In this document: piece by piece, positions 40,769 to 63,427 of the stretch | How positions within the stretch are numbered: position 1 is the stretch's first letter | How the letters are laid out: every line of letters begins with the position of its first letter | Origin: Litchfieldia alkalitelluris | GTDB lineage: Bacteria > Bacillota > Bacilli > Bacillales > Bacillaceae_L | Direction of reading: 5' to 3' | NCBI RefSeq assembly: GCF_002019645.1 | Contig: NZ_KV917374.1 | Location: forward strand, 4,796,369 to 4,860,368 | Length of the DNA: 64,000 nucleotides | Translations under genes and position numbers: made by a program | The notes under the pieces: model-generated | What the model was told of the DNA's origin: nothing | The model's database searches: none | What the model saw: only the letters and a program-made list of their open reading frames with translations

Positions 40769-40841
40769 GATGAAAAGTTGTTGGTTTATAGCTGCTATAT
40801 CTTACGATTTGCTCTTTACGTTAATTGCTTAACCTAATGGA

Positions 40842-40876
40842 AAAAATCGGCCTTAGGTTACATGAAGCCGATTTTT
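40842..40876 (-). terminator. Terminator of SBP copy 2
   Basis: AAAAATCGGC (40842-40851) / GCCGATTTTT (40867-40876), A- and T-flanked. The equivalent after SBP copy 1 is at 42816. Confidence 0.85.
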
Positions 40877-40888
40877 CCTCATCGATAT

Positions 40889-42604
40889 TTATTTTACAGA
40901 ATCATACCATTCATTCACTTCTTTGGTGACATCTTCTCCACCACTTGAATACCAATTCTCTACAAATTCGTCAAATGCCTCGATTGGTTTTTTACCATAA
41001 ATAATGTCTGTGTACGTTTCAATTTCAGATCTGTTTAGCATTTCCCATCTTCGTTCCATTGTTTTTGTTGGAGGACCAGTGAAATAATTAGGAATACCAA
41101 CAGAATCTTGTTCTGTAGCTATTATAGTTGCTTGATTTTCTATCATCTTCAGTGGATTCTTTCCGTCTAAATCTACATTTATAAACGCATTTGAACCTAA
41201 AGCTGCCAAATCCTCATTGGAGAGTTCTTCTCCCTTAGCAGCTTTTATCATAGCATCTAACAGCTTGGATTTATAAACAGGTGGGCTTCCTGTTAGCATA
41301 TACTTCTGCGATTGTATTGGATTTTCAATAGAAGTTGGCTTTCCATCTTTAAATGCATAATCGTAGCCATCCTGAAAGTCTTTAAACATGTAAGGATCTT
41401 CGCTCTCGTATATAGAATATAGCGTATTTCGATAATGGAAAAATGCTTGTAATTTTTCTTCGGAAATATCTTTATTGAAGAAAACCCCACCTAGAGTATC
41501 TTTACCAAGTACGTGAATATCGTTCCCGGTTTCTCCTGCTGGCAACGGATACGGCATATACCTTGCATCTGGCTTCGTCTGTAATAGCATGCCAATTGGA
41601 TAATTGATTGTCCATTGTGGACCTGCAAGCATCCCAACGTTTCCAGTAGTAACTTCTTTTACAACCGTGTTAAAGTTGCTAAGTGCGATCTCATTGATAT
41701 ATCCTTTTGCTTTCCAATCTCTCAGTGTAACTAAGGCATCTTTAACTTCTGGTTGAACAGAACCGTAAACAAGCTTACCATCTTCCCCTGGATACCATAT
41801 TTGCGGTATTGCTCCGAACCTACCAAAGAACCAGGAAGTTTCCGGCGGAACCTGCCCCATACCATACCATGGGTCACCAGCAAGTGCAAGTGGAGTCGTA
41901 TCTTTCTTACCATTACCATCTGGATCCTGACTAGCAAATGCTTCCATCACAATTTCTAGTTCTTTCATATTTGTAGGAGCCTGTAGTCCCAGTTTGTCTA
42001 ACCAATCTTGTCGAATCCATAAAACTGGTTGGCCACCTTTATTTTCAGATAGATTCGGAATTGCAAACTTTTTACCATCGGCCATGAACTGATACCAAGC
42101 CTCAGGAGATTCTGCTAGTGCTGCTTTATACGTATCTGAAGCATATTTATCAAACGCTTCGTCTACACTCATTACTAAACCGGATTCAATCAACATTGTA
42201 CTCAATTGGTGGTCATTAACCCAAAAGAAATCCGGTAATTCTTGCTTACCTGCAACTGCAAGCTTCAATTTCTCAGAAAAGCTTCCATCAGCTAGCGATG
42301 CTTGCCATTGTGACTCAATATTAATACCAAGTTTTTCTTCAACCCAACGTGTGTGGGCATTATTTGTAAGAGACTCCCCTTCTCGATATCCAGTACCTGA
42401 TATCTCAGCACTAATGGTTGTAAGAGTAATAGCTGGCTCAATTTTACCATTGACAATATTCAATGTAACTCCTTTATCCTCACTACTGTCACTCGTTCCA
42501 GGATCTTCACTTGTTGTAACATCCTTTTTACTGCATGCTCCTAAAATTCCGATAAGTAAAACAAGGGTAAAAACTAGAATTAAAAATCTCCATTTCATCT
42601 TCAA
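40889..42604 (-). CDS. Extracellular sugar-binding lipoprotein, copy 2
   Basis: 571 aa. Signal peptide with lipobox LGAC (Cys ~24), then a long solute-binding domain of the LplA/family-1 type (ITLTTISAEISGTGYREGES near the mature start; VLWIRQDWLDKLGLQAPTNMKEL; an EF-like loop DPDGNGKKD). It delivers oligosaccharide to the LplBC-like permeases. By eye about 15 residues differ from the copy at 42863, so the duplication is recent. The start is TTG where copy 1 has ATG. A 13/14 cre match and two 21-bp-phased repeats lie just upstream. Confidence 0.92.
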   Translation of the reverse strand: MKMKWRFLILVFTLVLLIGILGACSKKDVTTSEDPGTSDSSEDKGVTLNIVNGKIEPAITLTTISAEISGTGYREGESLTNNAHTRWVEEKLGINIESQWQASLADGSFSEKLKLAVAGKQELPDFFWVNDHQLSTMLIESGLVMSVDEAFDKYASDTYKAALAESPEAWYQFMADGKKFAIPNLSENKGGQPVLWIRQDWLDKLGLQAPTNMKELEIVMEAFASQDPDGNGKKDTTPLALAGDPWYGMGQVPPETSWFFGRFGAIPQIWYPGEDGKLVYGSVQPEVKDALVTLRDWKAKGYINEIALSNFNTVVKEVTTGNVGMLAGPQWTINYPIGMLLQTKPDARYMPYPLPAGETGNDIHVLGKDTLGGVFFNKDISEEKLQAFFHYRNTLYSIYESEDPYMFKDFQDGYDYAFKDGKPTSIENPIQSQKYMLTGSPPVYKSKLLDAMIKAAKGEELSNEDLAALGSNAFINVDLDGKNPLKMIENQATIIATEQDSVGIPNYFTGPPTKTMERRWEMLNRSEIETYTDIIYGKKPIEAFDEFVENWYSSGGEDVTKEVNEWYDSVK

Positions 42605-42647
42605 AGCTTATTCATCCCCCTATTAATTTATTCTTACATAATTATTA

Positions 42648-42661
42648 TAAAAGCGCTTACA
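42648..42661 (-). promoter_or_regulatory. cre-like site upstream of SBP copy 2
   Basis: Minus strand TGTAAGCGCTTTTA, 13 of 14 positions of the CcpA consensus; 44 bp before the start codon. Confidence 0.65.
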
Positions 42662-42675
42662 TACTTTTTATATAA

Positions 42676-42716
42676 CGGTTTCTTAACTTAATATAGCGAT
42701 TTCTTAACTTAATATA
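42676..42716 (-). promoter_or_regulatory. Tandem 21-bp-phased repeats upstream of SBP copy 2
   Basis: Two 20-bp copies, CGGTTTCTTAACTTAATATA (42676-42695) and CGATTTCTTAACTTAATATA (42697-42716), offset exactly 21 bp, i.e. two helical turns on the same face. Same core (TTCTTAACT) and phasing occur at 46574-46624 and, weaker, at 44649-44678. Confidence 0.7.
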
Positions 42717-42722
42717 TTAGCC

Positions 42723-42812
42723 ATATCTTAATTATTCTCTTTTACATCACCGATGACAATTCCTCTTATAAATCTTCTAATAACGCAGCATTGATAGTGC
42801 TGCAAATACCTA
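42723..42812 (-). pseudogene. 3' remnant of the LplC-like permease gene
   Basis: This stretch aligns with the 3' end of the permease gene at 44677 (shared ACATCACCGATGACAATTCC-like block and TAGTGCTGCAAATAC) but has an internal deletion. It shows that the duplicated unit included the end of the permease gene plus the SBP gene. Confidence 0.8.
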
Positions 42813-42815
42813 ATA

Positions 42816-42850
42816 AAAACTCGGATCCAGGTTTACTAGATCCGAGTTTT
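42816..42850 (-). terminator. Terminator of SBP copy 1
   Basis: AAAACTCGGATC (42816-42827) / GATCCGAGTTTT (42839-42850), 11-nt loop. Confidence 0.85.
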
Positions 42851-42862
42851 CCGCATCAATAT

Positions 42863-44578
42863 TTATTTTACAGAATCATACCATTCATTCACTTCTTTGG
42901 TGGCATCTTCTCCACCACTTGAATACCAATTCTCTACAAATTCGTCAAATGCCTCGATTGGTTTTTTACCATAAATAATGTCTGTGTACGTTTCAATTTC
43001 AGATCTGTTTAGCATTTCCCATCTTCGTTCCATTGTTTTTGTTGGAGGACCAGTGAAATAATTAGGAATACCAACAGAATCTTGTTCTGTAGCTATTATA
43101 GTTGCTTGATTTTCTATCATCTTCAGTGGATTCTTTCCGTCTAAATCTACATTTATAAACGCATTTGAGGCTAAAGCTGCCAAATCCACATTGGAGAGTT
43201 CTTCTCCCTTAGCAGCTTTTATCATAGCATCTAACAGCTTGGAGTTATATACAGGTGGGCTTCCTGTTAGCATATACTTCTGCGATTGTATTGGATTTTC
43301 AATAGAAGTTGGCTTTCCATCTTTAAATGCATAATCGTAGCCATCCTGAAAGTCTTTAAACATGTATGGATCTTCGCTCTCGTATATTGAATACAGCGTA
43401 TTTTGATAATGGAAAAATGCTTGTAATTTTTCTTCGGAAATATCTTTATTGAAGAAAACCCCACCTAGAGTATCTTTACCAAGTACGTGAATATCGTTCC
43501 CGGTTTCGCCTGTTGGTAACGGATACGGCATATACCTTGCATCTGGGTTCGTCTGTAATAGCATGCCAATTGGATACTTGATTGTCCATTGTGGACCTGC
43601 AAGCATACCAACGTTTCCAGTAGTAACTTCTTTTACAACCGTGTTAAAGTTGCTAAGTGCGATCTCATTGATATATCCTTTTGCTTTCCAATCTCTCAGT
43701 GTAACTAAGGCATCTTTAATTTCTGGTTGAACAGAACCGTAAACAAGTTTACCATCTTCCCCTGGATACCATATTTGCGGTATTGCTCCGAACCTACCAA
43801 AGAACCAAGAAGTTTCAGGCGGAACTTGCCCCATACCATACCATGGATCACCAGCAAGTGCAAGTGGAGTCGTATCTTTCTTACCATTACCATCTAGATC
43901 CTGACTAGCAAATGCTTCCATCACAATTTCTAGTTCTTTCATATTTGTAGGAGCCTGTAGTCCCAGTTTGTCTAACCAATCTTGTCGAATCCATAAAACT
44001 GGTTGGCCACCTTTATTTTCAGATAGATTCGGAATTGCAAACTTTTTACCATCGGCCATGAACTGATACCAAGCCTCAGGAGATTCTGCTAGTGCTGCTT
44101 TATACGTATCTGAAGCATATTTATCAAACGCTTCGTCTACACTCATTACTAAACCGGATTCAATCAACATTGTACTCAATTGGTGGTCATTAACCCAAAA
44201 GAAATCCGGTAATTCTTGCTTACCTGCAACTGCAAGCTTCAATTTCTCAGAAAAGCTTCCATCAGCTAGCGATGCTTGCCATTGTGACTCAATATTAATA
44301 CCAAGTTTTTCTTCAACCCAACGTGTGTGGGCATTATTTGTGAGAGACTCCCCTTCTCGATATCCAGTACCTGATATCTCTGCACTAATGGTTGTAAGAG
44401 TAATAGCTGGCTCAATTTTACCATCGACAATATTCAATGTAACTCCTTTATCCTCACTACTGTCACTCGTTCCAGGATCTTCACTTGTTGTAGCATCCTT
44501 TTTACTGCATGCTCCTAAAATTCCGATAAGTAGAACAAGGGTAAAAATCAGGATTAAAAATTTCCCTTTCATCTTCAT
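42863..44578 (-). CDS. Extracellular sugar-binding lipoprotein, copy 1
   Basis: 571 aa lipoprotein (lipobox LGAC) nearly identical to copy 2. ATG start with AGGGGG about 10 nt upstream. Sits directly after the intact LplC-like permease, 98 bp away, and therefore is the parental position of the tandem pair. Differences from copy 2 are scattered (for example DLDG for DPDG, HYQN for HYRN, PPVYNS for PPVYKS) and include two in a lobe near residues 430-455 that could affect ligand specificity. Confidence 0.92.
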   Translation of the reverse strand: MKMKGKFLILIFTLVLLIGILGACSKKDATTSEDPGTSDSSEDKGVTLNIVDGKIEPAITLTTISAEISGTGYREGESLTNNAHTRWVEEKLGINIESQWQASLADGSFSEKLKLAVAGKQELPDFFWVNDHQLSTMLIESGLVMSVDEAFDKYASDTYKAALAESPEAWYQFMADGKKFAIPNLSENKGGQPVLWIRQDWLDKLGLQAPTNMKELEIVMEAFASQDLDGNGKKDTTPLALAGDPWYGMGQVPPETSWFFGRFGAIPQIWYPGEDGKLVYGSVQPEIKDALVTLRDWKAKGYINEIALSNFNTVVKEVTTGNVGMLAGPQWTIKYPIGMLLQTNPDARYMPYPLPTGETGNDIHVLGKDTLGGVFFNKDISEEKLQAFFHYQNTLYSIYESEDPYMFKDFQDGYDYAFKDGKPTSIENPIQSQKYMLTGSPPVYNSKLLDAMIKAAKGEELSNVDLAALASNAFINVDLDGKNPLKMIENQATIIATEQDSVGIPNYFTGPPTKTMERRWEMLNRSEIETYTDIIYGKKPIEAFDEFVENWYSSGGEDATKEVNEWYDSVK

Positions 44579-44615
44579 AGCATATTAACCCCCTAATTTT
44601 TTTCATCTTCATTAT

Positions 44616-44629
44616 AAAAAACGCTTACA
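44616..44629 (-). promoter_or_regulatory. cre-like site upstream of SBP copy 1
   Basis: Minus strand TGTAAGCGTTTTTT, 12 of 14 matches to the CcpA consensus; same relative position as the site before copy 2. Confidence 0.5.
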
Positions 44630-44648
44630 TGTATTTTATATAACGATT

Positions 44649-44678
44649 TTTTTAACCTAACATATCTATATCTTAATT
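44649..44678 (-). promoter_or_regulatory. Phased repeat pair upstream of SBP copy 1
   Basis: TTTTTAACC (44649) and ATCTTAATT (44670), 21 bp apart; degenerate versions of the TTCTTAACT pair at 42680/42701. The second overlaps the end of the permease gene. Confidence 0.45.
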
Positions 44679-45552
44679 ATTCTTTTACACCACCGATGAC
44701 AATTCCTCGTGTAAAAAACTTCTGCAACACCGGAAATAAAGCTAAGATCGGTAGTGCTGCAAATACGACTTGTGCTGAACTAATAGAACGGAAATTTAAC
44801 TTTTGCAATTCTTCTGGATCGGAAGTTGAAAAATCTGGTAATGTAATTGCTGACTTAATAAATGTACTCAATGGCACATTGTCAGCTTTCATATAAATTT
44901 GCCCTGCGAAAAATTCATTCCATTCAAAAACGACCATGAATAACCCAACTGTCGCAACAACTGGCACAGATAAAGGTAAATAGATTTTATAAAATACTTG
45001 AAAGTGATTCGCTCCATCCAGAAAAGCAGATTCTTCTAATGATTTAGGTAACGTGCTAAAGAAATTCATGATCAGTATAATATAAAAAACATTTGTTAAG
45101 CCTGGCAAAACAATTGCCCAAATGGAATTGTATAAACCCATATTAGTAATTAATAGGTAGGTTGGGATTAAACCACCATTAAAAAGAAGGGCGAATATGA
45201 AAAAGATGATAAAAAACTTATGCCCCGCAATTCCATCTCGACCTCCTCCTTTTGACAATACATAACCTGCCATACAGGTCACAAATAGACCAATGCTTAC
45301 TCCTAGACATACTCTCTTTATACTAACCCAAAACGACTTTAATAACTGAGGATCCTCAAATGCTCTTTGATATGCAGCAGTTGTAAATTCGACCGGCCAA
45401 AAATATACTTGATTTGACAGAACAGCTGGACTAGAACTGAAGGAGAGTGCAACAACATGCAATAATGGAAGAACACAAATAGCTCCTAAAAACAGCATAA
45501 GTACAATGTTGAAGTAGTCAAATAGTCCATATGACCTTAACTTTGTTTTCAT
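44677..45552 (-). CDS. Carbohydrate ABC permease, LplC/YtcP type
   Basis: 291 aa, six membrane helices, BPD_transp_1 fold with the EAA-loop ESAFLDGANHFQVFYKIYLPL (about residues 180-200) that docks the ATPase. Ends RGIVIGGVKE, the usual end of this subgroup. 11 nt downstream of the other permease gene. No ATPase gene is in the cluster; in Bacillus a shared MsmX-type ATPase normally serves these permeases. Confidence 0.92.
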   Translation of the reverse strand: MKTKLRSYGLFDYFNIVLMLFLGAICVLPLLHVVALSFSSSPAVLSNQVYFWPVEFTTAAYQRAFEDPQLLKSFWVSIKRVCLGVSIGLFVTCMAGYVLSKGGGRDGIAGHKFFIIFFIFALLFNGGLIPTYLLITNMGLYNSIWAIVLPGLTNVFYIILIMNFFSTLPKSLEESAFLDGANHFQVFYKIYLPLSVPVVATVGLFMVVFEWNEFFAGQIYMKADNVPLSTFIKSAITLPDFSTSDPEELQKLNFRSISSAQVVFAALPILALFPVLQKFFTRGIVIGGVKE

Positions 45553-50547: not shown

Positions 50548-50691
50548 TGCTGTTGGAACCAATCTTCCTTCTTCAATTCAAAACGTTTATTGTTTGATTT
50601 GACAGCAAAAGTTACCGGGAATCTTCTCCCGTTCTTCGGCAGTAAGTCTAACTTGGCAGGAATATCGGCACCATGTAACATATCTTCTTGG

Positions 50692-50846
50692 TCAAACTCC
50701 GTATGGTGGGTGTAGCAAATCAAGCGCTAAGTACACAAAAATCTGCTCTTCTCCATACTTTTCTTCCCCGAGAAATTCAATGGCATTCTCAAATTTCTTC
50801 ACGTCTATATCACCCATACCCTTCAATATATCTTTATAATGGGAGT
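50692..50846 (-). pseudogene. Sulfatase internal fragment
   Basis: Minus strand reads SHYKDILKGMGDIDVKKFE, NAIEFLGEEKYGEEQIF and VYLALDLLHPPYGV then stop. The F..YL.L...HPPY.V pattern is characteristic of formylglycine-dependent sulfatases downstream of the active site. The active-site C-x-P-S-R segment is absent. It begins 8 bp past the GH1 stop. The stretch between this and the GH2 remnant (50548-50691) is open in one frame but unrecognised. Confidence 0.65.
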
Positions 50847-50854
50847 AGGTATCT

Positions 50855-52159
50855 TTACATAATTTCCCTAAAAGAATGTAATCCAGATTTTTTAATATTT
50901 CCTAAAAACGACAAACTTTCCTTTGGATATCTCGTTTGAGTTGAGCGATCAACGGCAATCAAGCCGAAGGTTTGTGCATACCCTAATTGCCATTCAAAAT
51001 TATCGAGTAAAGACCAGTGTGTATATCCAATGATGTGAATTCCTTCGTCTAGACATTGAAGCACACCTGTTAGTGCTCGTTCGATAAATTCAACACGATC
51101 TTCGTCACTGTCCGTTGATATGCCATTTTCTGTCACAATGATCGGTTTGTCCCAGTGCTTCGAAACAAATCGAAGAACATTTCCTAAAGCTTCTGGATAG
51201 TATTCATACCCCATTTTCGTGAGTCTCGCATTTTCATCTTTTAGAACTTCGCCATCTGGTCCATGAATTTTCCGAGAATAATTTTGAACCCCTAAGAAAT
51301 CATCTTCTTGTAGATATGGTAGATAGGAAAGCAAGTCTTCATGCTGTTCTTTTTCTACGAATTTTTCTCCCCCAGGCAATGCTTGATGGTCGTAAAGGGA
51401 GAATGTGATTCCAACCTTGATCGTTGGGTTTAGAGCTTTGATGACGCTTCGAGCCTTTTGATGACATTCCATAATAATGCGTTCACCATTTTCCGTTTTA
51501 GGGGCAAGAAATGTGTGTACATTTCTTGGGTCAATTCCAAAAGTCTCTCCTAACGAACGATAATAGAGCTCCATCCTCGCTTTCATAGTATCCATATTAA
51601 GTCCTACTTGCACATCTCCATCAGAACTTTTCGTATTCGAAGCAGACATTTTTATCATAATTTTTGTAATTTGTTTGCCCATATTTGCTTCATTTATCGT
51701 ACAGATGTAGGGAATAAGATGACCTAGTTCAGAAACTACATAGTGAGCGTACTTTCCAAAGTATTCAATTGTCGTTTCACTTTCCCATCCACCTTCGGAA
51801 ATCAACCATTTTGGTGATGAAAAATGATGCAAAGTCACGATTGGTGTTACATTTTTTAGATGACAGAACTCTAACACCTCTCTGTAATGTTGGATTTCAG
51901 CTTCATTAAAATGGCCTTTTGTTGGCTCAATTCTTGCCCATTCGATTGAAAATCGATAGGTGTCACAGCCTGCATCTACTAACAATTGAATATCTTCTTT
52001 GTATCGATGATAGTGATCCACAGCATCTAACGATGGTTCTTTGTACGTCGAATTTGGCACTTGCTCCATTGCCCAAAAATCACTATTCACATTATTTCCT
52101 TCTACTTGGTGTGCTGCTGTTGCAGCACCAATCATAAATCCATTTGGAAATTTTTTCAT
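50855..52159 (-). CDS. GH1 β-glucosidase-like enzyme
   Basis: 434 aa from MKKFPNGFMIGAATAAHQVE, with AAAGGGGAA upstream. TIM-barrel GH1: substrate residues in HQVEG and FSIEWARIEP, HHFSSP, the acid/base Glu in TINEAN (NEA instead of the usual NEP), and the nucleophile Glu in IIVTENG (~355). Ends with a W..LDNFEW glycone-binding loop (HWSLLDNFEWQLGY). No signal peptide. Cleaves imported β-glycosides; free or phosphorylated substrate is not clear. Divergent from an AraC paralogue that probably regulates it. Confidence 0.9.
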   Translation of the reverse strand: MKKFPNGFMIGAATAAHQVEGNNVNSDFWAMEQVPNSTYKEPSLDAVDHYHRYKEDIQLLVDAGCDTYRFSIEWARIEPTKGHFNEAEIQHYREVLEFCHLKNVTPIVTLHHFSSPKWLISEGGWESETTIEYFGKYAHYVVSELGHLIPYICTINEANMGKQITKIMIKMSASNTKSSDGDVQVGLNMDTMKARMELYYRSLGETFGIDPRNVHTFLAPKTENGERIIMECHQKARSVIKALNPTIKVGITFSLYDHQALPGGEKFVEKEQHEDLLSYLPYLQEDDFLGVQNYSRKIHGPDGEVLKDENARLTKMGYEYYPEALGNVLRFVSKHWDKPIIVTENGISTDSDEDRVEFIERALTGVLQCLDEGIHIIGYTHWSLLDNFEWQLGYAQTFGLIAVDRSTQTRYPKESLSFLGNIKKSGLHSFREIM

Positions 52160-52197
52160 TTTAACTTCCCCTTTCTGCAATCATAACCTTCATTAAT

Positions 52198-52211
52198 ATA
52201 AAGCGGTTACA
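52198..52211 (-). promoter_or_regulatory. cre-like site upstream of GH1
   Basis: Minus strand TGTAACCGCTTTAT, 12 of 14 matches to the CcpA consensus, 38 bp before the GH1 start. Confidence 0.45.
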
Positions 52212-52265
52212 CAACAAATTTTTTCATTGATAGCAAATATATCGTAGCATTCATATTCAGAAAAC

Positions 52266-52292
52266 TATGGTATTTCGGTACTATTTTTTGTA
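52266..52292 (+). promoter_or_regulatory. Shared motif, copy upstream of AraC gene 2
   Basis: TATGGTATTTCGGTAC, TATTTTTTGTA; ends 46 nt before the AraC start. Confidence 0.65.
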
Positions 52293-52338
52293 TTATTTAG
52301 ATAGGAAGATCATTTTGTAACGATGGAGAGGAGTACGT

Positions 52339-53583
52339 ATGAGCAACTATATCGACAAAATTGCAAGTAAGTGTAACCTCATTGCAGAATCTTTTCATTT
52401 ACCTGTTCTTTTCATCACTCCCACTGGAGGGGTGATCTATGAGAACATTAAAGATCAGATGTTAAACCCTTTATATGAAAATCGAAAAGAAAAATTGTTT
52501 AATCCTCTACATTTTAAACCTGATATAGAATTTCATTTCCCAGTCATTAAAAAATCAGCATTCTCTGAAAGATACATTTTAATAAGTGTGAGGAACGGAG
52601 AAGTCTTTGAAGGTACCGTCGTAATCGGGCCTTCTCTTTCCTATCCATTATCAGAAGATATTATTAATGGCATCATCAATGACGCACGAGCCTTTTTTTA
52701 TCGTGAAAATGTGATCCAATATTATCAGTCTTTACCGATCATCGCACCAGATAGACTCGTGCATATGAGTGTTATGATATTTCACTTGTTTAATAACATT
52801 CTACTTTCTCCCAGCGAGATACTAAGTGAGAATTCCATGCAAACCACGACGAGCGAAAAAGTCGAAAAGGTGAACTTATCCGTTTCTCAAAATCTACAGG
52901 AACATGCTTTTCATCATGATCGGCTTTTTGAGAAGAGAATTTTATATATCATTAGAGAAGGAAGAGTGGAAGACTTAAGTACACTTGCCATCACAAGAGA
53001 AGAAGAGAGTACGAGTCTTTTATCGAAGTCTAGTTATCTACGTTCCCTTAAAAACCACATTATTACTCTCATCACATTAGTGTCCAGAGCATCTATGGAT
53101 GGCGGACTACATGAGGAAATTGCCTTTTCCTTGCATGATAGCTTTATTCAGCATCTAGAGGAATTACAACGATTAGATGATGTTAGAAGTTTAGCGAGAG
53201 ACGTGCTGTACACCTATGCTGAAAAAGTAAAACAAGTTAAAGATGAACGGTATTCAATCACCATTACAAAATGTAAGGATTATATTTTTAAGCATATTTA
53301 TGAAGAAATTAGTCATAATGATGTTGCGAGAGTAGCCGATCTAAGCCAAAAATATTTGTCCGTCTTATTTAAAAAGGAAGTCGGAATATCGATAAGCGAG
53401 TATATTCAACAAACCAAAATCGAGGAAGCAAAAAAACTAATTGGCTATACTAAAACGCCCATCTCCGAAGTATGTTCACTATTAAACTATAATGACCAAA
53501 GCTATTTTACGAAGGTCTTTAAAAAAGTGGTTGGTATTACACCAAAGCAATTTCGCGAAAGACACCACCTTATGAATAAATAA
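52339..53583 (+). CDS. AraC family regulator, paralogue 2
   Basis: 414 aa, RBS GAGAGGAG 8 nt upstream. Closely related over its length to the protein at 19073: LPVLFITPTGGVIYENI, VIKKSAFSERYILISV, VVIGPSLSYP in the sensor part; LLSKSSYLRSLKNHIITLIT in the middle; KYLSVLFKKEVGISISEYIQ and NYNDQSYFTKVFKKVVGITPKQF in the HTH. Divergent from an intact GH1, which is its most likely target. Confidence 0.88.
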   Translation: MSNYIDKIASKCNLIAESFHLPVLFITPTGGVIYENIKDQMLNPLYENRKEKLFNPLHFKPDIEFHFPVIKKSAFSERYILISVRNGEVFEGTVVIGPSLSYPLSEDIINGIINDARAFFYRENVIQYYQSLPIIAPDRLVHMSVMIFHLFNNILLSPSEILSENSMQTTTSEKVEKVNLSVSQNLQEHAFHHDRLFEKRILYIIREGRVEDLSTLAITREEESTSLLSKSSYLRSLKNHIITLITLVSRASMDGGLHEEIAFSLHDSFIQHLEELQRLDDVRSLARDVLYTYAEKVKQVKDERYSITITKCKDYIFKHIYEEISHNDVARVADLSQKYLSVLFKKEVGISISEYIQQTKIEEAKKLIGYTKTPISEVCSLLNYNDQSYFTKVFKKVVGITPKQFRERHHLMNK

Positions 53584-53615
53584 CCCTACACTTTTATGTA
53601 TGTAGGGTTATTTTA
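53581..53615 (+). terminator. Terminator after AraC gene 2
   Basis: TAACCCTACA / TGTAGGGTTA with a 10-nt loop, then TTTTA. The remaining 53616-54027 contains no gene I can support; a minus-strand stretch near 53700-53790 reads RGFNTVIVEGGGLHLKQL and may be a fragment of a carbohydrate-binding domain. Confidence 0.8.
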
Positions 53616-54027
53616 GTGTAGGATTTGTTAGTTATTACTTAGTGTTCTATGAAAGTCAATGTCTAGTAATTTATTTGTTCATGGAATAGTTCCTTTTTTC
53701 GTCGACGACTAACGAACCTCAATTTCAATTGTTTGAGATGTAACCCTCCACCTTCAACAATAACAGTATTAAATCCCCTCTCAGTAGGACGAAAACAGCA
53801 AATGCTTTTCCATCTTAAAACGATAGTTTGAAAGAGTCTGTCCTAATTTATTTGGTAAATTATTCGTACCCACAAATAACGACTCTTTTTTGTATCTAAC
53901 AAGCGATCATAGTGTATTTTAATATATTTATATTTCAATATTTTTGGGCGACCCAAATTCAAAAACGACTGAACTTTCGATAAAGCCTGTATATTAAAAT
54001 ACAGTTTAATTATCATTTCTAGATGGC

Positions 54028-54987
54028 TCATCTAAAACTCTTCACTACACGAAACCCACAGTTACTTGTAGAACTATCAGGTGTATTTGAACTTCTTGCA
54101 GCAACTCGGTATCTATTGCAGTAAGAGTGGTGACAGAGGAATGATCCTCCACGCATGGAGCGGTTTCCTGTTGGTTTCGTAAAGGCTGGATTTTCAGTAC
54201 TAGTTTCTCTGTGATACCGTGGAGTAAACCAATCACTACACCATTCCCACACATTACCCGACATATTGTATAAACCATATCCATTAGGCTCATAGCTGTC
54301 CACTGGTGCAGTACCAATATATCCGTCACCTGCATTATTTATTGTAGGAAACGTTCCTTGCCATATATTGCAGCGATGCTTCCCGTCTGGCTCAAGTACG
54401 TCCCCCCACGGGTACGTTTTTTGGACTATTCCTCCCCTTGCAGCATACTCCCATTCAGCTTCTGTTGGCAACCTGGTTCCAGACCACTTACAATAGGCTT
54501 CAGCATCATGCCATGATACATGTGTCACTGGGTGATTCATTCGATCATTTATAGTAGAATCGTGTCCTTCTGGCTTTTTCCAATATGCACCTTGTACAGC
54601 TAGCCACCATGGAAGCCCTGGCATTTCGTGTGCTTTCGCTTTCACTTCACTTGAGGCTAATAAATGAAAAACATAAGACCAACCGAATTGTTCTGCTTCC
54701 GTTACATAGCCTGTCTCGTCTACAAAGAGTTTAAAGTCTTTATTTGTTACAGTGTATGGAGATATATAAAAGTCATGTAGTTTTACCTTACGGACAGGGC
54801 CTTCTCCATCACTTGGAAATCCCTCATTCGTTTCGGTTCCCATTAGGAACTCACCGCCTTTTATATGAACAAAATCAGATGAGTTAGCGGCATTAGTTGC
54901 TCCCTCTATTCTTTGGGTTATATGTTTAGCTAGTTCTTCTGCTTTATTTCGGCTTGCAGCACAGCAGGATTTTTGCGCTTGTTCCAT
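54028..54987 (-). CDS. Formylglycine-generating enzyme (sulfatase-modifying factor)
   Basis: 319 aa. Oxygen-dependent enzyme that turns the active-site Cys of type I sulfatases into formylglycine. N-terminal KSCCAASRN, then FVHIKGGEFLMGT, THVSWHDAEAYCKWSGTRLP, TEAEWEYAARGG, GNVWEWCSDWF. The paired catalytic cysteines lie in SFLCHHSYCNRYRVAAR (Cys ~285 and ~290, spaced 5 as in the human enzyme). This separates it from non-catalytic family members. RBS GGAGG 10 nt upstream. Last gene of the CHR-CHR-ROK-FGE operon. No intact sulfatase is in the window. Confidence 0.92.
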   Translation of the reverse strand: MEQAQKSCCAASRNKAEELAKHITQRIEGATNAANSSDFVHIKGGEFLMGTETNEGFPSDGEGPVRKVKLHDFYISPYTVTNKDFKLFVDETGYVTEAEQFGWSYVFHLLASSEVKAKAHEMPGLPWWLAVQGAYWKKPEGHDSTINDRMNHPVTHVSWHDAEAYCKWSGTRLPTEAEWEYAARGGIVQKTYPWGDVLEPDGKHRCNIWQGTFPTINNAGDGYIGTAPVDSYEPNGYGLYNMSGNVWEWCSDWFTPRYHRETSTENPAFTKPTGNRSMRGGSFLCHHSYCNRYRVAARSSNTPDSSTSNCGFRVVKSFR

Positions 54988-55013
54988 TTTTATATAACCT
55001 CCATATTAGAAAT

Positions 55014-56219
55014 TTATAAATCCGATAGCTGTTTGATTACTATAGAAGCTGCACCTATAGCTACTGCATCTTCACCTAATTTACTTTTTTCAAAAATCAC
55101 CTTATATGTTGGGACATAGAAAGTTTTATTCAATGCAACCCGGATGGCTTGATCGTAGAATAGTTGGTTGCCTGAAATAAGTGGTCCACCCAAAATAACC
55201 TTTTGGGGGTGTAGGATATTAAGTAAATTTGCAAGTCCTATACCAAAGTATGATGCGGCTTGATTGAAGACTTCTATAGCTAAGGGGTCGTTTTCTTTTA
55301 ATGCTTGTTCAAGCATATAATACTTAATATCATCAATATGTTTAGTGTACTGATTTAAAAGAGAAGTTCTGCCAATTTTCAAAGCATTTTTTACTGCTTG
55401 TTCCAAAGCATAAGTAGAAACATAAGTCTCCAAACTACCATAGTTCCCCTCAGAATGCCAAGGAGGGAGGCCATCACTTTGAATAATCATTTGTCCTACG
55501 GAACCTTCCATATCAACTGCACCATAAACAAGCTGTCCACCTGTAATCATCGCTGATCGAATACCCACCCCCACATGGAGGTAAAGCAAATGCTCAATGA
55601 TATCATTTGAATCAGACCAAAACTCTCCCAGGAGCGCTGCATTTGTACCATTGTCAAGTATTGTATAAAAGCCTAATCTTTCTTGGTAAATTCTACAAAT
55701 ATCAATGTTTTTCCATGTAGGAGAAGGAAAGTTTTGTGGATCTAGAATCCTTCCATTAATACGATCAAGTGGACCAACCGCACCAATCCCCATTCCTAAT
55801 ATGTTATCTTCATTTATATGATGCCGGTCATACATCTGTTTTATAACTTCCACGACCTCCTGAAGTAAACGTTCAGGAGTCATCGTAACATCCATCTTCC
55901 AAATATAATCGTCCAATTTATTTAAATGTAAGTCACATAATACAAGTCTTGAATTCGTCCGAGAGATATCCAACCCAAATACATAAGCAAAGGAAGGATT
56001 TGTCCGAAACAAAATGGGGCGCCTTCCCCCAGTTGATTCTCCTAGCCCAACCTCAACGATTAACCCCTGTTCTGTCAATTCATCTAGAATTCTAGTAAGA
56101 GTGCTACCTGTCAATCGGCTGATGTTCTTTATGTCTGTCTTAGATATGGTTCCACGGCGGCGAATCACCTCATAAACTTCCTTTGCGTTTCGTCCACTTA
56201 TAATATTACTCGGTATCAT
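55014..56219 (-). CDS. ROK family transcriptional regulator (NagC/XylR type)
   Basis: 401 aa. N-terminal winged helix (VYEVIRRRGTISKTDIKNIS, GSTLTRILDELTEQGLI) followed by a ROK sugar-kinase-like domain (VFGLDISRTNSRLVLCDL, GMGIGAVGPLDRINGRIL). The catalytic DxD region reads ILDNGTNAALLGE, with Gly where ROK kinases have Asp. The zinc-binding CxCGxxGC is replaced by PPWHSEGNYGSLE, so it should be non-catalytic and possibly zinc-free. A sugar-responsive repressor of its own operon is the likely role. 26 nt from FGE, 21 nt from the CHR gene. Confidence 0.88.
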   Translation of the reverse strand: MIPSNIISGRNAKEVYEVIRRRGTISKTDIKNISRLTGSTLTRILDELTEQGLIVEVGLGESTGGRRPILFRTNPSFAYVFGLDISRTNSRLVLCDLHLNKLDDYIWKMDVTMTPERLLQEVVEVIKQMYDRHHINEDNILGMGIGAVGPLDRINGRILDPQNFPSPTWKNIDICRIYQERLGFYTILDNGTNAALLGEFWSDSNDIIEHLLYLHVGVGIRSAMITGGQLVYGAVDMEGSVGQMIIQSDGLPPWHSEGNYGSLETYVSTYALEQAVKNALKIGRTSLLNQYTKHIDDIKYYMLEQALKENDPLAIEVFNQAASYFGIGLANLLNILHPQKVILGGPLISGNQLFYDQAIRVALNKTFYVPTYKVIFEKSKLGEDAVAIGAASIVIKQLSDL

Positions 56220-56240
56220 GTTACACTTCCTATCGATCTA

Positions 56241-56780
56241 TTATCCGTAGAGGGCTACCCCCACTAATCCTGATAATAGTATGACATAAACCGGGTGAAT
56301 CCGAAAGCGAATTAAAGCTAATAAAGATAACCCGAAAATTACTAACAAGCTCAAAGTATGCCAAGAAAATGAAGAAACTAACCCATTATTCTTAGCAAAT
56401 AAAATAGCAGCGTACACAATAAGGCCTGTAATGATGGAGCGAAGTCCATAAAACGCTGATTTAACTACGAGACTTTTCTGAATTCTATAAAAGATAGCAC
56501 CTATCGTAATTATAATCATTAATGAAGGCAAAATCATTCCAAGTGCAGACATAAATGCACCGGCCATACCCATTTGTTCATATCCAATGAAAATTGCACT
56601 ATTCGTAGCAATTGGACCGGGTGACATTCCCGCTACTGCAATAACATCTGTAAAGGATTGCACAGTCATCCAACCGTGTTTCTCTACAACTTCTTGTTGT
56701 ATAAGTGGAATCATAGCATAGCCACCACCGAATGAAACAAAACCAATCATAAAAAATGTACTAAACAAATCCCAAAGCAT
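56241..56780 (-). CDS. CHR (chromate transporter) family half-size subunit 2
   Basis: 179 aa with about six membrane helices; signature FFMIGFVSFGGGYAMIPLIQ at the N-terminus and GMSPGPIATNSAIFIGY in the middle. Half-size CHR proteins work as pairs (B. subtilis YwrA/YwrB are an example); family substrates are oxyanions such as chromate, with sulfate as a natural analogue. AGGGGG 9 nt upstream of the ATG. Co-transcribed with its partner 18 bp upstream. Confidence 0.88.
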   Translation of the reverse strand: MLWDLFSTFFMIGFVSFGGGYAMIPLIQQEVVEKHGWMTVQSFTDVIAVAGMSPGPIATNSAIFIGYEQMGMAGAFMSALGMILPSLMIIITIGAIFYRIQKSLVVKSAFYGLRSIITGLIVYAAILFAKNNGLVSSFSWHTLSLLVIFGLSLLALIRFRIHPVYVILLSGLVGVALYG

Positions 56781-56798
56781 ATTAGGAGTCCCCCTTTC

Positions 56799-57425
56799 CT
56801 AAATCCCTGCACCAAGGTAATAGTCTGGTTTTACCGTTTCTTCTTTTTCTAATTTAATGCTAATTCCTAATTTCTTCTTTAGACTTATGATACCTATCCC
56901 AATGATTCCACCACTTATAATAATTAGAACAGGGTGAATGTGTATAAAAAACAATACCGCAACCGTGATTGCTATTAGTGCAACTGTTGTTTTATCAACT
57001 ATAGCTGTTTTACCAATTTTTATTGCAGCATATGTAATTAATGCTACAATTGTAGCTCTAATAGAAACAAAGGCGGCCTCCACTTTTGGATTATCTTGTA
57101 CCTGTAAGAAAAACAAACTTAACATGACAACAATAAAAAAAGTCGGAAGTAACACACCAGTCATTGCCACGATCGCACCCGCAACACCTGCTAGTCTATA
57201 CCCAATAAAGGTTGCCGAATTAATGGCAATTGCACCAGGTACAGATTCTGCAACAGCAAAAATATCAGTCACATCTTCAGTCTTAACCCAACGACGCTTC
57301 TCTACTACTTCCCTCTCAATAAGTGGAATCATAGCATAGCCACCACCAAAAGTAACGGGTCCAATTTTAAAAAATGTTATAAAAATTTGCACTAGAAGCT
57401 TTATATCAAACGCTTTGACTTTCAT
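56799..57425 (-). CDS. CHR (chromate transporter) family half-size subunit 1
   Basis: 208 aa, six helices plus a short hydrophilic tail. Same signature as its partner: FFKIGPVTFGGGYAMIPLIE and ESVPGAIAINSATFIGY. RBS GGGAG 8 nt upstream. First gene of the operon. Being co-expressed with a sulfatase-maturing enzyme suggests a sulfate-related job rather than chromate resistance, but that is inference. Confidence 0.88.
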   Translation of the reverse strand: MKVKAFDIKLLVQIFITFFKIGPVTFGGGYAMIPLIEREVVEKRRWVKTEDVTDIFAVAESVPGAIAINSATFIGYRLAGVAGAIVAMTGVLLPTFFIVVMLSLFFLQVQDNPKVEAAFVSIRATIVALITYAAIKIGKTAIVDKTTVALIAITVAVLFFIHIHPVLIIISGGIIGIGIISLKKKLGISIKLEKEETVKPDYYLGAGI

Positions 57426-57661
57426 GTAGATTACTCCCTTCCTTATTGGATCCTATAGCTATCATATCACACTTAATTCCATTTCGGTTTAAAGATTCTA
57501 AAAAAATAATGGATTTTCTTAAATTAAAACTTGTATATTATGATTGTTTTAATCATATTGGATAAAAGTTGTTTTTCTTTTTTAAAATTATATTTTAGTG
57601 ATTTCATTAAATGAAAAACAAAAATCATATAACAATGAAAAACATCGTATCACCTGTAGGT

Positions 57662-58956
57662 TCAAAATAGTTTCCACGATGTTTTGGAGTAGTTCATATT
57701 AACTTGTTTTAATGGTTCACAACATTTTTTGAACTTCTTACCACTTCCACATAAACACGTATCATTTCTACTAGGTAACTTTTGACCTGCATTAATATAG
57801 TTCTCAATCCTCCTTGCCTTCACATTTCTTGCAACGATTCGCATTCGTTCGTCGGCATATTGATAGATTTGCTTAAAGCTTTGACAAAAGTAGTCTGATT
57901 GAGAATTATTACTCTGATACCAATTTCTATTTCTCGGACAACCACCATTACATAAATTTAAATACTCACAATTCTTACATTTATTAGGTAAATTTGTCTT
58001 TTTACTTAAAAACTCATCATATATTGGATGAGAGTTATAATCGATTGTAAAGAAGAACTGTAGATATTTCCTAAAAAGTGATCTTCATGAATATAAAAAT
58101 CGCAAGGGTAGGCATCACCATTTTGTTCAAATACTATTGACTTTGGACATGTTTTTCGGTGAGTACATAGCTGAGCCTCTTCATGAAGATACACCGCTAA
58201 CATATTATCAAAAAAGCGAATAGAGGTTTCGGGGTAACCGTTTTGATACCAAAAATCGAATACTTCACATAAGAAGTTACCATATTCCTTTGGAGTGATT
58301 AGGAATCTTCCAGGTTTATTTATGTCTTGAGAATTAAAATCCATACAAGGAATGAATTGAACAAAGTTAACCTTCTCTTTATGATAAAATTCCATTAATT
58401 CCTGAGCTTTGTTTATATTGTTCTCATGTAATACAGTAAGAATGTTAAAGTCTACATTTTCAGCTTTTAAATATCCTATTCCGTTCATGATTGATTTAAA
58501 GCTACCCGCTCCAGACCCAGTTAACCTTCTAGCATCATTAATAGATTCAGGACCATCTAAACTTACTCCTACGAGAAAGTTATACTTTTCAAAAAATTTT
58601 GCCCATTTTTGATTTATTAGTGTTCCGTTTGTTTGGATAGCATTGCTAATGATTGTATTTTGAGGCGCATACTTTGCTTGGAGAAAAACAACTTTCTCAA
58701 AAAAGTCCAATCCTGCCAATAAGGGTTCTCCTCCTTGCCATGCAAAAGAAGTGTATCCATTTGACATTTCCATATATTCTTTTATAAATTTTTCTAATAC
58801 CTCATCAGATATTACTTCTATTTTTTCTGGTCGTCCATTACAGCGACTATAATAGCAATAATCACATGCTAGATTACAAGCCTCCGAAACAGTTTTCCAC
58901 ATTACAGCTAATGGGCTTGTAATGTTGGTCTCACAATAGTTATTCAATTTTATCAC
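57662..58956 (-). pseudogene. Anaerobic sulfatase maturase (radical SAM), frameshifted
   Basis: 58006-58956 encodes 316 residues of an anSME/AtsB-type protein: radical-SAM cluster CNLACDYC (Cys ~27, 31, 34), FAWQGGEPLLAG, VGVSLDGPESINDARR, and the first SPASM cysteines (CTHRKTC, DAYPCDF). A single-base frameshift near 58040-58050 ends it at a false stop. In the next frame the protein continues: NSHPIYDEF, CKNCEYLNLCNGGCPRNR (second SPASM cluster), and a SEC-C-type zinc motif RNDTCLCGSGKKFKKCC to 57662. Rejoined it would be ~430 aa. Losing the second cluster should inactivate it. Confidence 0.85.
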
Positions 58957-63097: not shown

Positions 63098-63427
63098 ATT
63101 TATTCCAAACTCTCCGAACGATTCTTCACAACTCCTGGAAGCCGGATGATCGTGGCTGAACGGGAGGCATTGTAAATAAGGATTATAAGGGTAATCGTTG
63201 CGAATATATTTAAACGGGTTCGTCCCGAACTGCTCGAACCTTGTCATAAGCTTCTTCATAACGGTCTTGCTGGATTTCTGGTACCTTATACTCACTAATG
63301 TCGGGAAAGATAAAATATCCTTGCACCATTTACTCTATAAACGACCTAAAAGAGGTTTTATCCTTTCAAATATAGCCCTACCGTCGTATTATCCACCATA
63401 TGAAGCAAAGAGAATAGATTTTTATAT
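63098..63427 (-). other. Gene-poor stretch with protein-like remnant
   Basis: 330 bp with no intact gene. The minus strand around 63200-63305 reads DISEYKVPEIQQDRYEEAYD then KVRAVRDEPV before a stop; this looks like real decayed coding sequence but I do not recognise the family. Confidence 0.3.

Follow-up and report, generated by a model that had tools for sequence, protein, structure and literature searches.

The formylglycine-generating enzyme (FGE, SUMF1 type) of Litchfieldia alkalitelluris is encoded within a 64,000-nucleotide stretch of contig NZ_KV917374.1 (positions 4,796,369 to 4,860,368), which is referred to here as the window; positions are those of the window unless given as genome coordinates. 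The FGE gene occupies 54028-54987 on the minus strand. Its upstream neighbours, likewise encoded on the minus strand, are a ROK-family regulator, two short proteins of the chromate transporter family (CHR), and an anaerobic sulfatase maturase (anSME). Together with the FGE, these genes are the members of a sulfatase-activation cassette. The window also holds pieces of two sulfatase genes, and two intact sulfatase genes are found beyond its end. The best joint explanation, in which we have high confidence, is a cassette for sulfatase activation with clients for its single FGE, where the FGE carries an N-terminal double-cysteine tag of a CC-x-P/A-x-R-like form that is conserved across its enzyme class.

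The FGE is an intact protein of 319 residues, with a core spanning approximately residues 38-316. It matches PF03781 (1.7e-84) over positions 3-255 of the 255 in the profile, a GGAGG ribosome site precedes its ATG, and it is the sole PF03781 match in the genome. A first-pass annotation, made from the sequence of the window by itself, had described an intact FGE with a cysteine pair at about 285/290. This was borne out; C285 and C290, the active-site pair that holds Cu(I), are invariant in 39 aligned FGEs. The best fold match is the copper-bound FGE from Streptomyces coelicolor (6muj, chain 6muj_D; template-modelling scores 0.87/0.95, E 1.6e-44), and the copper-bound enzymes of S. coelicolor and Thermomonospora curvata (6muj, 2q17, 6s07) provide the best matches in both fold and sequence. 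The active site is of the C-H-x-S-Y-C class, the same as in human SUMF1.

The N terminus of the window FGE reads MEQAQKSCCAASR. It contains the tag CCAASR at residues 8-13 (54949..54966, minus strand), which stands ahead of a variable linker. In an alignment of 14 FGEs, M1, C8, and C9 are the only invariant residues ahead of the core and R13 is nearly so, while the linker varies freely; C8 and C9 are also invariant in the set of 39. No solved FGE chain, including those of S. coelicolor and T. curvata, aligned to the tag. Close Streptomyces relatives do carry it, as CCAPSG (L063) and CCTPST (L197).

The distribution of the tag follows the active-site class. Full-length, nonduplicate FGEs were sorted by the residue that follows the first cysteine of the active-site pair; nine duplicates, partial hits, and hits in which no cysteine pair could be recognised were left out before the count. 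In the human-type class (C-H-x-S-Y-C), CC was found in the tail of 94 of 99 full-length proteins, compared with 2 of 67 in the other class (C-A, C-N, C-S, etc.), both of the latter from Bacteroidota (L098, L123). The named organisms with tagged FGEs belong to the Bacillota, Actinomycetota, Chloroflexota, Spirochaetota, Acidobacteriota, Pseudomonadota, and Verrucomicrobiota; the CC-x-P/A-x-R-like tag is thus conserved across the class in several phyla. The set of 80 FGE loci, the best of at least 584, favours the tag because the query alignment contained it. In samples collected with tag-free queries, CC was present in 37 of 37 human-type FGEs versus none of 39 from the other class (Fisher 1.5e-22, relatedness uncorrected); one of these core-only samples gave loci for 30 of its 43 matches and another for 30 of its 50, with the others not examined. 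What we take to be the Mycobacterium-type FGE, the C-A-x-x-Y-C class, shares PF03781 and the cysteine pair with the window FGE and falls on the side where the core-only query found no tag. Of the 13 EgtB-like control proteins (L034-L046), one has a CC preceding the domain.

A separate sample from Bacteroidota (L226-L244), comprising 19 loci with the centre counted, stands outside the count of 94 of 99. Six of its members have C-x(3-5)-P-[SAK]-R-F/Y after a signal sequence, and the tails of 4 of the 19 were unseen. This tail of some signal-peptide Bacteroidota FGEs, C-x(3-5)-P-S/A/K-R-F/Y, is a looser form of the tag.

In the 94 tagged human-type proteins, the CC is followed mostly by A, T, or S and then by P (63) or A (16); the next positions hold S, G, or A and then R (61), H (8), or K (3). 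When the human-type FGEs were reduced to those at <70% identity, CC was found in 60 of 65, where 4.4 were expected and no more than 12 were seen in 2000 shuffles, ruling out a chance double cysteine. With CC held fixed and the rest shuffled 5000 times, P at motif position 4 (40 of 60) and R/K at position 6 (43 of 60) stood far above the shuffled means of 7.2 and 7.5 and maxima of 16 and 19. The cysteine codons vary synonymously, with TGC or TGT at both places, which indicates selection on the protein and rules out conservation at the DNA level only.

In wording, the consensus resembles the very site that FGE modifies. C-x-P-x-R is given as the core of the sulfatase signature read by FGE (PMC4659905). 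One explanation for the likeness is that the tag is a true self-substrate: the enzyme would oxidise a cysteine of its own tag to formylglycine, whether to act as a switch, to label the protein, or by accident. In favour of such a role, the C-[ATS]-P-[SG]-R consensus equals the sulfatase site, and P and R/K are enriched far above shuffles. However, the spacing is loose in several signal-peptide Bacteroidota FGEs, the R is missing in many Streptomyces, and the first tag cysteine is no less invariant than the second, a constancy that a substrate site would not require. We regard a self-substrate role as improbable, and a strict self-substrate motif was rejected as an over-strong description because exact CC-x-P-x-R occurs in only 34 of 99.

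A second comparison is with human FGE/SUMF1, which has the core fold, the C-H-x-S-Y-C pair, and a two-cysteine N-terminal extension ahead of the core in common with the window FGE. The two differ in that the human cysteines, at positions 50 and 52 (PMC7279497), form C-x-C as opposed to a vicinal CC, and in that the window FGE lacks a signal peptide, being a bacterial protein of the cytosol. In a quick tree of 93 cores, for which the Streptomyces and other-class rows were sampled at random, the human core fell in the tagged clade with 99% support in the Shimodaira–Hasegawa-like approximate likelihood ratio test (58 rows, made up of 55 tagged and 2 untagged ones plus human). On this tree, only 4 changes of the tag label are required versus 28.7 in shuffles, which leaves few independent events. 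A review describes the human N-terminal extension as unique to higher eukaryotes, with a role that is partly retention in the endoplasmic reticulum (ER) (PMC7279497). The bacterial tag may match this human tail, a comparison made by Cys50/Cys52 alone and not by the other letters of the tail. Should the tag of bacteria, which have no ER, be homologous to it, retention there cannot have been the original purpose. No description of the bacterial tag was found in the available portions of the literature searched, which included PMC8067471, PMC4766608, PMC5915273, PMC13199485, and PMC4659905; key papers, Mariappan 2008 and Carlson 2008 among them, were outside its coverage.

The work on human FGE raises another reading of the tag, as a handle by which a partner docks or exchanges electrons; a chaperone, a thiol carrier, or a nascent sulfatase could be that partner. 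Such a role has been proposed for the human enzyme and ERp44. Cys50 and Cys52 are reported to bind ERp44 (PMC4505483, PMC7279497), and changing them abolishes both this binding and sulfatase activation in cells (PMC7279497). The tagged bacterial enzymes, however, mostly lack a signal peptide and have no ER, and no common partner gene recurs beside FGE except sulfatases. A partner handle seems rather unlikely to us as the role of the bacterial tag. In vitro, the human N-terminal extension is dispensable and copper treatment raises FGE activity; before copper is added, the activity of S. coelicolor FGE produced in E. coli is far below that of human FGE (PMC4505483).

These features could be accommodated if the tag served in copper loading. 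We put forward, as a tentative possibility that falls short of probable, that the enzyme has in this tag a substrate-like arm of its own for loading the metal. The two tag cysteines would bind Cu(I), the P-x-R of the tag would find the groove that reads C-x-P-x-R in substrates, and the tag would then hand Cu(I) to the active-site pair C285/C290, so that FGE could be charged even where free copper is scarce in the cell. A copper arm would explain why a tag matters in cells and not where copper is added, as well as its likeness to the substrate. Nothing in the literature searched settles how FGE acquires copper in cells.

Extended to the human enzyme, the proposal would be that an ancient substrate-imitating CC-x-P-x-R arm predates eukaryotes, survives as human Cys50/Cys52, and brings Cu(I) to the active site in cells. 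We consider this wider claim somewhat unlikely as it stands. If it is true, the in-vivo-only need for the human N-terminal extension would reflect the loading of copper, and any bacterial FGE examined without its arm would start out short of the metal. If the tag is homologous, the question could be addressed in a simple bacterium. There is a possible bearing on multiple sulfatase deficiency and on the production of aldehyde-tagged proteins, which in practice is limited by under-loaded FGE (PMC4505483, PMC4766608).

Several observations weigh against the tag as a copper arm or as a fixed part of the enzyme. AlphaFold2 leaves the tag disordered, with a predicted local distance difference test score (pLDDT) below 50, in the window FGE and in a second FGE, so docking of the tag is not supported by these models. 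No copper-chaperone gene recurs near FGE, with 1 HMA-like motif hit in 46 loci. The motif is also far from uniform, with exact CC-x-P-x-R in only 34 of the 99 human-type FGEs and CC-x-P-S-R in 5 of 99, and the R is often missing from the tag in Streptomyces. Finally, FGEs without the tag exist, so it cannot be needed by every FGE; the five human-type FGEs without CC are two from Actinomycetota (L077, L082) and three from Bacteroidota (L094, L106, L109).

Clients for the window FGE were sought among the sulfatases of the genome. PF00884 matches five proteins (six match rows, with one protein in two pieces). Two of these, S5 and S1, have full frames with C-x-P-S-R and the metal-site motif SDHG, as a genome-wide search for this motif, suggested in the first-pass annotation, confirmed; the other three have no C-x-P/A-x-R cysteine motif. 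S5 (G000:C1:4887599-4889329; CAPSR, 576 residues, PF00884 5.4e-45) lies 27.2 kb past the end of the window, with GH3, GH39, and an MFS_2 protein as neighbours. S1 (G000:C1:4912757-4914403; CVPSR, 548 residues, PF00884 5.2e-44) lies 52.4 kb past the end, beside another MFS_2 importer, an alpha-L-rhamnosidase, and a GH2. No long hydrophobic run or obvious membrane or export segment was seen in S1 or S5. We infer that sulfated oligosaccharides are imported and then desulfated in the cell by S1 and S5, and our guess is that the glycan contains rhamnose and uronate. In a separate observation, a segment of ~180 bp at 1809-1969 is repeated at two sites 117-123 kb off (78-79%), one of them near S1.

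Both sulfatase pieces of the window are relics, and each resembles one of these intact genes. Relic 1 (50614..50848, minus strand) is closest to S1, with a tblastn match of 5e-18 and 54% identity over 81 columns (50614-50847), one stop, and 76% DNA identity over 164 bp (50685-50848). Relic 2 (63123..63326, minus strand) is spread over two frames and is closest to S5 (tblastn 2e-11; 78% DNA identity over 63123-63267). Each relic matches only its own intact counterpart among the proteins of ≥150 residues called in the surrounding 164 kb. The piece of about 50 residues that the first-pass annotation placed at 50692-50846 is real, as its match to S1 shows, and extends slightly beyond those limits (50614-50848). 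A Pfam profile search with the 55 residues of relic 1 by themselves gave no hit to PF00884. That annotation had named such an outcome as refuting, and to the letter it applies, yet the pairwise homology is plain.

The same annotation had taken this fragment for the only sulfatase and offered two options, an FGE that serves sulfatases elsewhere in the genome or a sulfated-glycan locus being lost. The first stands: because the genome keeps two intact Cys-type sulfatases, the single FGE has clients. The claim of a lost sulfatase was rejected on the same ground, and relic 2, missed in that annotation, is a further sulfatase sequence within the window itself. Loss of the locus, with FGE as a relic that has no clients, has in its favour the two relics, the frameshifted anSME, and two same-genus genomes in which searches found none of FGE, anSME, or an S1-like sulfatase. 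It is opposed by the two intact CxPSR sulfatases and by an FGE that is full length, with its active-site pair and ribosome site intact, and we consider it very improbable. The two relics and the frameshifted maturase show local decay, but loss of the locus is not supported genome-wide. Since the two same-genus genomes have none of the three genes, the cassette was either acquired here or lost there. Neither intact sulfatase adjoins the window, a placement that the first-pass annotation had named as refuting; the two lie farther out, in the same sugar-degradation region. A window without an intact sulfatase is not equivalent to a genome without one.

The pairing of FGE with anSME also recurs in relatives. 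A full-length FGE is present in 15 of 118 relatives and a broken FGE in one more. Close anSMEs (E ≤ 1e-50) occur in 4 of the 118, all among the 15 that have FGE (Fisher p = 0.0002), and an S1-like sulfatase occurs in 3, again all among these 15 (Fisher 0.0017), where both values ignore relatedness. FGE and anSME share a contig in 3 of the 4 relatives with both, at distances of ~0.4, 7, and 18 kb. The pairing of aerobic and anaerobic maturases, singled out earlier as notable, is thus not unusual in the order, given that all four anSME-bearing relatives also have FGE. For the eight Bacillota loci among the 80 best FGE loci, a sulfatase homologue lies ≤10 kb from FGE in all 8, the CHR1-CHR2 pair is upstream of FGE in 4, and anSME is upstream in 1. 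Two counts pull the other way on the association of FGE with sulfatases: at E ≤ 1e-30, an S1-like sulfatase, the only kind sought there, is missing from 12 of the 15 relatives that carry FGE, and no sulfatase was found in the fetched flank of 28 of 46 human-type FGE loci, where some contigs were short. As a side observation, the broken FGE of the additional relative (L033, G096) has internal stops and still encodes a CC tag (CCTPER).

The anSME is divided by a frameshift, as the first-pass annotation had proposed for its radical-SAM maturase, with the TIGR03942 match split over two frames. The 5' piece up to the frameshift (58006..58956, minus strand) matches at 6.5e-101 and ~338 bits; at 337-338 bits, it falls just below the curated cut-off of 349. 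It contains the radical-SAM CxxxCxxC motif as CNLACDYC. The 3' piece, in another frame (57662..58039, minus strand, with an approximate 5' limit), matches TIGR03942 positions 298-361 at 50.4 bits and carries the remaining SPASM cysteines and a SEC-C motif (PF02810, 1.8e-10). Part of the SPASM cysteines thus lie past the break, and no single open frame holds all the cluster cysteines. The gene shares the radical-SAM and SPASM cysteines and the family match with known anSMEs and differs in its frame, which is broken in this assembly, and in its C-terminal SEC-C. Uninterrupted frames of 414-422 residues with the same kind of SEC-C end are found in 4 of the 118 relatives, so intact copies exist. 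The frameshift could be an assembly or sequencing error, in which case both maturases would be functional. Both pieces keep their family matches, all the cluster cysteines are present on one side of the break or the other, and no other lesion was seen, while the neighbouring sulfatase relics show that decay has occurred at this locus. We judge an error to be a serious possibility, a little short of an even chance.

The remaining genes of the cassette lie between FGE and anSME. The ROK-family regulator (55014..56219, minus strand; 401 residues, PF00480 5.2e-35) has upstream of it CHR protein 2 (56241..56780, minus strand; PF02417 2.4e-48) and CHR protein 1 (56799..57425, minus strand; PF02417 3.3e-51). 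The placement of a ROK regulator between the CHR pair and FGE is also seen in locus L052. CHR proteins beside sulfatase maturation genes may possibly export freed sulfate, a role suited to cytoplasmic sulfatases.

On the other side of FGE are a GH1 glycosidase (50855..52180, minus strand; 441 residues, PF00232 1.7e-72) and an AraC-type regulator (52339..53583, plus strand; 414 residues, PF12833 1.7e-20). The GH1 gene and the start of the AraC gene (50854-52772) are duplicated ~30 kb away at G000:C1:4877709-4879625 with 89% DNA identity, and the second AraC copy is truncated. An Rfam scan of the whole window returned 0 matches. Elsewhere in the window, a tandem duplication of ~2 kb (40832-42809 and 42808-44766) is 94% identical and has a 571-residue frame in each copy. 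Outside it, at G000:C1:4893315-4893797 (L009), a His/Asp-rich tandem repeat lies within a 400-residue gene beside a lactate-racemase-like cluster.

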